DNA of 64,000 bases from Deferribacter autotrophicus (GTDB lineage Bacteria > Chrysiogenota > Deferribacteres > Deferribacterales > Deferribacteraceae): contig NZ_VFJB01000003.1 of the NCBI RefSeq assembly GCF_008362905.1, positions 255,501 to 319,500 of the forward strand, read 5' to 3'. The notes below the pieces were generated by a model that saw only the letters and a list, made by a program, of their open reading frames with translations, made no database searches and was not told where the DNA came from. Below are positions 36,009 through 39,711 of the stretch, piece after piece. The position numbers were made by a program, and so were the translations under genes. Within the stretch, counting starts at the first letter, position 1, and the number at the start of each line of letters is the position of its first letter.

Positions 36009-37316
36009 ATGAACCCATTAGCTCAAGAGTTAAACGAAATGATAGCAAAAGATAATGCATCTGTTTTAGAAATGTTGTCAAAACTTGGGAAAAATCTGTT
36101 TATGCCAAAAGGGATTTTAACACAGTCTGCAGAAGCAAAAGAGAAAGCTCATAAATTCAATGCAACAATCGGTATTGCTACTGAAAATAATGGCCCTATG
36201 TATCTTGATTGCATTTATGAGCCTTTAAATACATTTGAACCTAAAGATCTCTTCCCTTATGCACCTGCTACGGGAAAACCTGAGCTTAGAAAAGCCTGGA
36301 AAGAAAAAATGGTAAAAGAAAATCCTTCTTTGCAGGGCAAATACATCGGACTACCTATTGTTACAAATGCATTAACCCATGGGCTTAGCATTGTGGCTGA
36401 TTTATTTGTAGATGAAGGTGATTATGTGGTGACTCCCGATAAATTCTGGGGAAATTACAGGCTTACCTTTTCTGTTAGAAGAGGTGGTGAGATTGCTACT
36501 TTTGATACTTTTACAAAAGAGGGTAAGTTTAATGTAAATGGTTTGATAGAAAAAGTAAAAGAATGTGGTGAGGCTAGAGGTAAGGTTATTATTTTGTTGA
36601 ATTTCCCTAATAACCCTTCAGGGTATATGCCTACAGTGGAAGAAGCAGAAGCTATAGCCAATGGGCTTGTTAAGCTTGCTGATGAAGGGATAAAAATTAT
36701 TGCTGTGACAGATGATGCATATTTTGGACTATTTTATGAGGATTCAATAAAAGAATCAATTTTTGGTTTACTTGCCAATAAATCTGAAAATCTGTTGGCT
36801 ATTAAATTAGATGGGGCTACTAAAGAGGAGTATGTTTGGGGTTTTCGTGTGGGCTTTATCACATTTGCAGCTACAACTAATGAGCCTCAAGAAGGGATGT
36901 TAACGGCATTGGAGAAAAAGGTTGCAGGTCTTATCAGAGGTACAATTTCAAACTGCCCTCATCCATCACAAACTTTTGTTTTAAGAGCTATAAATCATCC
37001 TGATTTTGCTAAGCAGAAAGCAGAAAAATATGAAATTATGAAAGCAAGGGCTTTAAAAGTTAAAGAAGTTCTGGATAGTGGAAAATATGTGGATGAATTT
37101 GAATATTATCCATTTAATTCTGGTTATTTTATGTGTTTAAAGTTGAAAAATGTGGAAGCTGAAGCATTGAGAGTACATCTTCTTGATAAATACGGTGTTG
37201 GCACAATTTCCGTAAACAAAACCGATTTAAGAATTGCGTTCAGTTGTATAGAAGTTGAGCAAGTAGAAGAACTATTTGATATTATTTATCAAGGGTGTAA
37301 GGATTTGAATAAATAA
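36009..37316 (+). CDS. Class I/II aminotransferase
   Basis: The protein of 435 residues is a fold-type I PLP aminotransferase. ILLNFPNNPSGYMPT is the cofactor-region N-N-P motif, VTDDAYFGLFYE the conserved D-x-Y, and IKLDGATKEEYVWGFRVGF contains the Schiff-base lysine and the arginine segment. The family resembles aspartate/aromatic aminotransferases, but the substrate is not clear. It is followed by a short gap and then yedF. Confidence 0.82.
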   Translation: MNPLAQELNEMIAKDNASVLEMLSKLGKNLFMPKGILTQSAEAKEKAHKFNATIGIATENNGPMYLDCIYEPLNTFEPKDLFPYAPATGKPELRKAWKEKMVKENPSLQGKYIGLPIVTNALTHGLSIVADLFVDEGDYVVTPDKFWGNYRLTFSVRRGGEIATFDTFTKEGKFNVNGLIEKVKECGEARGKVIILLNFPNNPSGYMPTVEEAEAIANGLVKLADEGIKIIAVTDDAYFGLFYEDSIKESIFGLLANKSENLLAIKLDGATKEEYVWGFRVGFITFAATTNEPQEGMLTALEKKVAGLIRGTISNCPHPSQTFVLRAINHPDFAKQKAEKYEIMKARALKVKEVLDSGKYVDEFEYYPFNSGYFMCLKLKNVEAEALRVHLLDKYGVGTISVNKTDLRIAFSCIEVEQVEELFDIIYQGCKDLNK

Positions 37317-37358
37317 GGGGGCTTTAAGCTTCCCTTTTTTTATATGGGGGATAATAGT

Positions 37359-37952
37359 ATGGTTGTCGATGCAAGAGGCAAAGCATGTCCAACACCTGTA
37401 ATTATGACAAAGAAAGCCCTTGAAGAGATTGAAGAGGGTGTGATAACTGTTTTGGTAGATAATGTTGCGTCAAAGGAGAATGTCTCAAAGTTTGCTGCAA
37501 GCCAAGGATTTACTTACGAGGTTGATGATAAAGGGGAGTATTTTGAAATTGTTATCGCAAAGGGGTACAAGTGTTCTCTTCCTCAAGACAGTGACAAAGA
37601 TAAAGAAGATGTCACAGCTAATCTTGTGATTCATGTAGGAAGCGACGCTATTGGTAATGGTAGTGATGAGCTTGGAAAATTATTAATGACAGGTTTTATT
37701 GAAAATATTATTAATATGGACTTTTTGCCTAAAACGGTGATTTTTGTAAATAGCGGAGTGTTTTTAACAACAAAAAATGAAAAGACAATTAATGCTTTGA
37801 AAGAACTGGAAAACAAAGGTGTAGAAATTCTAAGTTGTGGTACATGTTTAACCCATTTCAATTTGATGGATGATTTGAAGGTGGGTGAAGTTACTGACGC
37901 GTACAAAGTGATGCAGCGTTTGTTTTATGCAGATAAAATAATAAGGTTGTAG
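37359..37952 (+). CDS. yedF: Sulfurtransferase-like selenium metabolism protein YedF
   Basis: This 197-residue protein has an N-terminal TusA domain (MVVDARGKACPTPVIMTKKALEE, with the CPxP active cysteine) and a C-terminal DsrE-like domain (LVIHVGSDAIGNGSDELGKLLMTGFIENI, ILSCGTCLTHF). YedF genes of this type lie beside selD and are thought to act in selenium delivery. GGGGGA eight bases before 37359 fixes the start; an ATG at 37344 is less likely. It ends 5 bases before selD. Confidence 0.9.
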   Translation: MVVDARGKACPTPVIMTKKALEEIEEGVITVLVDNVASKENVSKFAASQGFTYEVDDKGEYFEIVIAKGYKCSLPQDSDKDKEDVTANLVIHVGSDAIGNGSDELGKLLMTGFIENIINMDFLPKTVIFVNSGVFLTTKNEKTINALKELENKGVEILSCGTCLTHFNLMDDLKVGEVTDAYKVMQRLFYADKIIRL

Positions 37953-37957
37953 GGGTT

Positions 37958-38986
37958 ATGATTAAGCTTACACATCTTGCAAAAGCTGCCGGGTGAGCAG
38001 CTAAAATAGGTCCGGAGGACCTAAACAAAACACTTAATGGATTGAAGTATTACCGGTCTGACAATCTTATTGTGGGCTTTGAAACTAATGATGATGCTGG
38101 TGTGTATAAAATCAGTGATGACAAATATTTAGTTCAAACAGTGGATTTCATTACCCCAGTGGTTGATGACCCTTACACCTTCGGTAGAATTTCGGCAATT
38201 AATTCTTTAAGTGATGTTTATGCTATGGGAGGTACACCTCTTACTGCTCTTTCAATACTTATGTATAACTGTGATATAGATGCCGATATTATCAAAGCTA
38301 TGATGCAAGGTGCATGTGATGAACTATCAAAAGTTGGATGTACATTGCTTGGTGGGCATTCCGTGGATGACAATGAGGTGAAACTTGGGTTTGCCGTAAC
38401 TGGTATGATAAATGACGGCAAAGTCTTTAAGAACTGTACGGCAAAAGTTGGTAATGACATTATTTATACAAAGGCATTGGGCATAGGTATTGTTTCTACG
38501 GCCATAAAGGGTGAAATGGCAAAGAAGGATGAAATCGATGAAGTTACAAAGCTAATGCTTTTATCAAATTATGAAGCAAGTATTTTGATGAAAAAATATG
38601 ATGTATCAGCCTGTACTGATGTTACAGGTTTTGGGCTCGCTGGACACCTTTTTGAAGTAGCAAAAGGCTCGAATGTAACATTGGAAATAAATAGTAATCA
38701 GATAAATTACCTTGAATCAGCATTGCAGTATGCAAATATGGGAATAATTCCTGCAGGTGCATACTATAATAAACAGTATTTAGAATATAATGTGGATTAT
38801 TCTGCAGTAAAAGAAGAATACAAGATGTTACTTTTTGATCCTCAAACATCGGGTGGATTATTAATATTCGTTGATGAAGATGAATCCGGTAAGCTTTTAA
38901 ACGATTTATTCAAATCAGGCTATAAAGATGCGGCAGTTATTGGTAAAGTTGTAGATTTCTCCGAAAAATTCGTAATTTTTAAATGA
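37958..38986 (+). CDS. selD: Selenide, water dikinase, a selenoprotein with in-frame UGA
   Basis: The gene begins MIKLTHLAKAAG, then an in-frame TGA at 37994-37996, then AAKIGPEDL. In SelD this position is the active Cys/Sec, so the UGA is read as selenocysteine (residue 13) and the full protein has 342 residues. The remainder has the SelD pattern: TVDFITPVVDDPYTFGRISAINSLSDVYAMGG, LLGGHSVDDNEVK, VTGFGLAGHLFE and LLFDPQTSGGLLI. It makes selenophosphate from selenide and ATP. A frame starting at 38042 would lose the active site. A SECIS-like hairpin follows the UGA. Confidence 0.95.
38007..38023 (+). promoter_or_regulatory. Bacterial SECIS-like hairpin
   Basis: TAGGTCC-GGA-GGACCTA starts 10 bases after the in-frame UGA (37994-37996), the distance at which bacterial SECIS elements lie. 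It has a 7-bp stem and a small G-containing apical loop, as needed for SelB binding. It is inside the coding sequence of selD. Confidence 0.8.
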
Positions 38987-39024
38987 AACATGAAAAAGGG
39001 GAGATGGGGAAGTAGGGAGGTAAT

Positions 39025-39062
39025 AACGTTCCAACGTTCTAACGTTGGAACGTTCTAACGTT
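39025..39062. repeat. 8-bp AACGTT array, possible terminator between convergent genes
   Basis: Five AACGTT units occur at an exact 8-bp period (39025, 39033, 39041, 39049, 39057). The whole stretch is close to a palindrome. It lies between the selD stop and the transaldolase stop, and TTATTTATTTTT follows on the plus strand. The same octamer array is at 9943-10006. Confidence 0.75.
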
Positions 39063-39711
39063 ATTTATTTTTGGTGGCTTTTTCCCAATCAGCCAAAAAT
39101 TTTTCCAAACCAATATCTGTTAGAGGATGCTTAAATAGCTGCTTCAATACTTTAAAAGGGATTGTGGCAATATCAACACCATTTAATGCAGCTTCTTGTA
39201 CATGCATAGGATGACGAATACTTGCAGCGATTACTTCGGTATCAAAATCGTAATTAATTACAATTTCTTGACATGCAAGGACAATATCAAGCCCATTGTG
39301 ACCTATATCATCAAGTCTTCCTGCAAAAGGGCTAATATATCTTGCACCAGCCTTACAGGCTAAAAGGGCCTGATTTGGAGAAAAAATCAATGTCATATTT
39401 ACATCAATCCCTTCCTGGGTAAGAATATATGTAGCTTTCAAACCTTCTTCAGTAAATGGTATTTTCACCACCACGTTTTCATCAAGTTTTGCAAGCTCTC
39501 TTGCTTCTTTAAGCATTCCTTCCAAATCAGTAGCTATTACTTCAGCACTTACTGGCCCTTGGACAATATCACAAATTTCTTTGATGGTTGATTTCAAATC
39601 TCTATTTTCTTTTGCAATTAAGCTTGGATTTGTAGTAACACCATCCACTACTCCATAGGACACAGCTTCTTTTATTTCTTCAATATTTGCTGTATCTAAG
39701 AATATTTTCAT
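39061..39711 (-). CDS. tal: Transaldolase, TalC/MipB type
   Basis: The protein of 216 residues is a short-form transaldolase. It begins [17 protein letters not shown], then [31 protein letters not shown] with the Schiff-base lysine near residue 84, [14 protein letters not shown] and [13 protein letters not shown]. It transfers dihydroxyacetone units in the non-oxidative pentose phosphate pathway; fructose-6-phosphate aldolase activity is an alternative for this subfamily. It overlaps the preceding small gene by four bases. Confidence 0.9.

Follow-up and report, generated by a model that had tools for sequence, protein, structure and literature searches.

An in-frame UGA and a covarying SECIS-like hairpin point to a selenocysteine-containing selenophosphate synthetase in Deferribacter autotrophicus

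The selD gene of Deferribacter autotrophicus almost certainly encodes a selenophosphate synthetase that itself contains selenocysteine (Sec), with the UGA at codon 13 decoded as Sec via a hairpin just downstream. This reading comes from comparing sequences, namely those of the window (the whole 64,000-nucleotide stretch of DNA that was analysed), of the genome to which it belongs and of related genomes, and on that footing the original prediction, which took selD for a selenoprotein gene, is supported.

Results

The selD frame and its active-site codon

The frame opens at the ATG at 37958, reads MIKLTHLAKAAG-TGA-AAKIGPEDLNKTLNGLKYY... and ends at the stop at 38984-38986 (Table 1). An in-frame TAA lies upstream at 37934-37936, and between it and the ATG there is no alternative in-frame ATG, GTG or TTG. 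As had been anticipated of automatic gene callers, the mechanical ORF list opens this frame at the TTG at 38042; such a start would cost the protein its active-site loop, and the misplaced gene start is corrected here for selD. When the TGA at codon 13 is read through, with Sec (U) entered as C in the SelD protein searches, the product matches the selD model TIGR00476 with 351.4 bits (cut-off 125) over profile positions 1-310 of 311 and carries two AIR-synthase domains, PF00586 and PF02769.

The alignment with the solved structure 2yye begins at residue 1, and the TGA falls, as the original prediction held, on the active-site Cys of both 2yye and 3u0o. The N-terminal loop is accordingly GUAAK, Sec followed by a conserved Lys, against GCAAK in 2yye and GCGCK in 3u0o. 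The best PDB match (239 bits) is 2yye, listed together with 2zod, which we take to be the SelD of Aquifex aeolicus with Sec as its native residue; its loop agrees with the one found here once U is written as C, whereas the 2yye chain is the Cys form, unlike the Sec form predicted for this protein. The chain 3u0o, presumably from Escherichia coli, belongs to the same family (209 bits) and is a Cys enzyme with Cys at the Sec position; the U-A-A-K of the present protein has Ala where the GCGCK of E. coli has its second Cys.

Table 1. Coordinates of selD, its putative recoding signals and its upstream neighbour in the window
Feature	Coordinates	Strand	Basis
yedF-type selenium-associated sulfurtransferase-like gene	37344..37952	+	TIGR03527 (selenium_YedF) 229.7 bits, cut-off 110; end 5 nt upstream of selD
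AGGGG, possible ribosome binding site of selD	37951..37955	+	proposed from position; spacing to ATG short (2 nt)
selD (selenide water dikinase / selenophosphate synthetase)	37958..38986	+	342 residues, probable Sec at 13; TGA=U translation, TIGR00476, PF00586, PF02769, PDB 2yye and 3u0o
In-frame TGA, probable Sec codon 13, active-site Cys position	37994..37996	+	aligned to Cys of 2yye/3u0o; TGA in 23/23 clear SelD genes of the order
Probable bacterial SECIS hairpin, 7-bp stem TAGGTCC/GGACCTA, apical loop GGA	38007..38023	+	fold z -3.47; two-sided changes in 4/7 pairs; bSECIS criteria as given in part of PMC13188914

A SelD search of 45 genomes of the order gave a match at E 0.001 in 25 of them, and 23 carry a clear SelD, with a best match of E 4e-87 or better; G027 and G043 were left out of this set, their matches being weak (E 6.7e-5 and 3.7e-7) and free of stops. 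In every one of the 23 clear SelD genes, TGA stands at the active-site codon, within G-TGA-A-A-K. SelD genes 62-63% identical to this one, with the TGA and a hairpin (-6.5 kcal/mol), also occur on two MAG contigs labelled Desulfuromonadaceae (L048:5001-6020 and L050:4640-5659), possibly through transfer, wrong binning or wrong labelling.

The neighbourhood of selD likewise agrees with the original prediction, which had placed YedF next door: the gene directly upstream is a selenium_YedF match well over the cut-off (Table 1). Upstream of the yedF-selD pair, at 36009-37316, lies an aminotransferase-type gene that matches the hypothetical-protein model PRK08637 with 690 bits, over the cut-off. 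Between selD and a converging transaldolase-family gene, at 39021-39064, there are short palindromic repeats of the type CCAACGTTCTAACGTTGGAACGTTCTAACGTT.

A hairpin downstream of the TGA

The predicted hairpin is a perfect stem of seven base pairs, with TAGGTCC at 38007-38013, the loop GGA at 38014-38016 and GGACCTA at 38017-38023, and it begins, as had been stated, 10 nt after the TGA, which places the apical loop 17 nt from it. A 51-nt RNA folds at -17.1 kcal/mol, a value to which a small additional stem across the TGA contributes, with z -3.47, and none of 200 dinucleotide shuffles equals it; taken by themselves, the 36 nt that follow the TGA reach -9.5 kcal/mol. For bacterial SECIS elements, a recent review (PMC13188914) expects a stem of 4-16 bp, a loop of 3-9 nt with G as its first or second base, a UGA-to-loop distance of 16-37 nt and an MFE no higher than -7.5; the selD hairpin lies within all of these limits as given there (3-nt loop GGA, 7 bp, 17 nt, -9.5 kcal/mol). 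This, together with the covariation described below, bears out the description of the hairpin as SECIS-like. Across 37900-38150, Rfam returned nothing above its gathering scores and four sub-threshold, unrelated matches.

In an alignment of the 23 SelD genes (21 distinct rows), 94.6% of the cells of the seven pairs are paired, and shifting the partner column by 1-3 positions lowers this to 19-57%. Two-sided changes are found in four of the seven pairs, a number reached by 2 of 500 shuffles, and the covariation score of 0.390 was reached by none of 500, while further pair types show no excess (370 of 500 shuffles reach the count); these shuffles ignore the relatedness of the genes. RNAalifold recovers the same stem minus its innermost pair, and adds a three-pair stem around the TGA. 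An order-wide set of 23 probable Sec-SelD genes with a covarying SECIS is thereby documented.

The hairpin also lies within codons for KIGPEDL, so that it might be a by-product of the coding sequence, with the SelB-binding signal elsewhere or unneeded. When synonymous codons were randomised in the 23 genes, more than 5% of the recodings folded as well as the native sequence in 8, L030 and L039 being the worst, and 15 stood at or below 5%; all 23 were recoded with the codon usage of the window, and several of the folded energies include pairs outside the stem. The 36-nt fold reaches -7.5 kcal/mol in 20 of the 23 genes and is weaker in L028, L030 and L039. A further point in favour of a by-product comes from outside the order, where a search of 50 phylum genomes gave two SelD matches (G045 and G047, of one family), both without an internal stop and reading GCGCK. 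In one of these Cys-type genes, L070 (G047:C1:1079200-1082200), the Cys codon is followed by a 5-bp hairpin capped by a GTT loop, perhaps accidental, perhaps left over from a former SECIS; a weak hairpin at that place is therefore not unique to Sec genes. Yet the 36 nt after the Cys codon fold at only -4.9 and -6.3 kcal/mol in the two genes (the latter in L070), both weaker than the selD hairpin and with a different stem. For the window's own copy, moreover, 1 of 1000 synonymous randomisations of the 36 nt, amino acids kept, is as stable, and the two-sided changes in four of the seven pairs go along with changed amino acids, GPED having given way to SPEG in L025-L027 and L040 with the pairing intact. 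We regard a coding by-product as very improbable, and prefer to see the hairpin as the SelB-binding signal.

Sec machinery in the genome and the order

The presence of selA, selB and selC, which the original prediction implied, and of which the last two would have refuted it by their absence, was borne out in this genome. The genes selA (C4:346-1668, 527 bits) and selB (C4:1686-3506, 315 bits), both over cut-off, are adjacent with overlapping reading frames; among 14 control genomes selA exceeds the cut-off in one and selB in two. A tRNA-Sec gene at C6:107533-107625 scores 62.7 bits (cut-off 47) and has the anticodon TCA (UCA), an acceptor stem of 8 bp and a T stem of 5 bp. By itself the Rfam tRNA-Sec model is not specific, matching 17 places in this genome, two of them over cut-off, and all 14 control genomes, five over cut-off. 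The second over-cut-off place in this genome is a tRNA-Leu according to ARAGORN. A gene for SelU/MnmH, over cut-off, lies at C4:258924-259844, and the SelD search gave one place in this genome, with no second SelD.

Across the 45 genomes of the order, selA and selB are each over cut-off in 20. One or both were found in 21 of the 23 genomes with a clear SelD, against none of the 22 others, several of which are incomplete; the two SelD genomes without them, G002 and G008, are 73% and 87% complete. A SelU over cut-off occurs in 25 of the 45 genomes, namely 22 of the 23 with SelD and three without a clear one (G024, which is 95% complete, G027 and G043).

The UGA could in theory be read as another amino acid, either as Trp, through near-cognate read-through, or as Cys, through a variant tRNA. 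We consider this highly improbable, as SelA, SelB, a tRNA-Sec with a UCA anticodon and the SECIS hairpin are all present, and SelD homologues have Cys at this place. Nor is TGA a general sense codon: it terminates selD itself at 38984, a place occupied by TAA or TAG in 16 relatives and by TGA in 4, which speaks against a general reassignment of UGA.

That the TGA is a nonsense mutation or sequencing error, with function starting at the TTG at 38042 or lost altogether, has a negligible probability, for the only point in its favour is that automatic ORF listing opens there, whereas the TGA recurs in all 22 relatives from the order, across genera and at 51-73% protein identity, the rest of the frame is open in them except in L029 (an extra TAA) and L040 of G003 (interrupted by a contig end), and translation from 38042 would leave out the active-site loop. 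L029 (G014:C3:238325-239317) is the SelD of a Denitrovibrio-labelled MAG and probably the same record as L051; its internal TAA, besides the Sec TGA, may reflect either error or decay.

Search for further selenoproteins

Formate dehydrogenase was examined because it is the customary partner: none of the 20 stretches matching its alpha subunit in this genome contains an internal stop, and none is over the family cut-off. Of seven such frames examined, the two best have Cys at what we take to be the place of the Sec/Cys ligand. In the order as a whole, 2 of 89 stretches contain one TGA, G014:C12:124288-126312 and G043:C88:5052-5807, and each is possibly Sec or an error. Since G014 is a SelD genome, its TGA may count against SelD as the sole selenoprotein of that genome; G043 is 64% complete, and selA and selB were not found in it. 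The six AhpC-TSA matches in this genome are likewise free of stops.

A covariance model of the hairpin, which can miss SECIS elements of other shape, gave 23 matches in this genome at E up to 10 (150 of 924 candidates scored), with SelD at 1.3e-20 and the 22 others from 0.0066 upward. Inspected by eye for nearby TGAs and open frames, without folding, none of these 22 was convincing. Two of them stay possible candidates: in L095 a TGA lies 28 nt before the match, just ahead of an apparently ordinary gene start, and L096 is a 10-nt match whose open frame extends over 47 codons ahead of the TGA and 130 behind it. Within the 64-kb window SelD scores 55.8 bits and the next match 8.7.

Because no Sec-containing formate dehydrogenase was found, SelD may be the chief or only selenoprotein of this genome, as far as formate dehydrogenase alpha, AhpC-TSA and hairpins of the selD shape are concerned.

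Discussion

In bacterial Sec decoding, SelB binds a hairpin in the mRNA and brings Sec-tRNA-Sec to the UGA. By analogy with this established process, we envision that when the ribosome reaches the UGA at codon 13 of the selD mRNA, SelB with GTP and Sec-tRNA-Sec would bind the hairpin just downstream, and Sec would be inserted without termination. In the flexible N-terminal loop, where selenide is handled, Sec13 would then stand in for the active-site Cys. The product, selenophosphate, would pass to SelA, charging tRNA-Sec and so allowing more SelD to be made, and very probably also to SelU/MnmH, for 2-selenouridine in tRNA. Sec insertion, SelD activity and the use of the product are what we infer from the genes. 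Since SelD would depend on selenophosphate to be made, and the genome search gave no Cys-type SelD able to set such a loop going, we also infer a starter, which may be inherited SelD protein or a different residue inserted at a low level at the UGA.

This self-dependence, combined with the lack of a detected Sec-FdhA, makes the genome a fair one in which to ask whether Sec decoding persists for SelD alone. That Deferribacter, and perhaps the whole order, keeps selA, selB and selC for SelD alone, as a closed loop with SelU 2-selenouridine as the sole outlet, seems to us a rather doubtful proposition. The idea that Sec decoding is kept for SelD was already put forward for other bacteria in 2006, according to passages of PMC1794560, which discuss SelD as the single selenoprotein in several species with SelU (YbbB). 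The present genome resembles these in combining a probable Sec-SelD with SelU, with no Sec-FdhA found.

A Sec-containing SelD as such was published by 2005-2006 at the latest and is a known, fairly common arrangement. SelD and FdhA are described as the most widespread bacterial selenoproteins in a passage of PMC1794560, and a survey from 2016 includes 394 selenophosphate synthetases in its tally of the selenoproteins of 383 organisms (PMC5029168). For Deferribacter, Deferribacteres or Calditerrivibrio we found no description of a Sec-SelD, judging from titles and the beginnings of abstracts; in the portions of two Deferribacter genome papers that mention 'selen' (PMC6896113, PMC13186404), the word occurs only in connection with selenate reductase, Seleniivibrio and a reference. 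Part of PMC1242214 lists the SelD proteins of Haemophilus influenzae and Photobacterium profundum as selenoproteins, and passages of that paper and of PMC1794560 extend the likeness to Campylobacter jejuni and others. For P. profundum selD, the same passages include a drawn SECIS, as is proposed here for D. autotrophicus.
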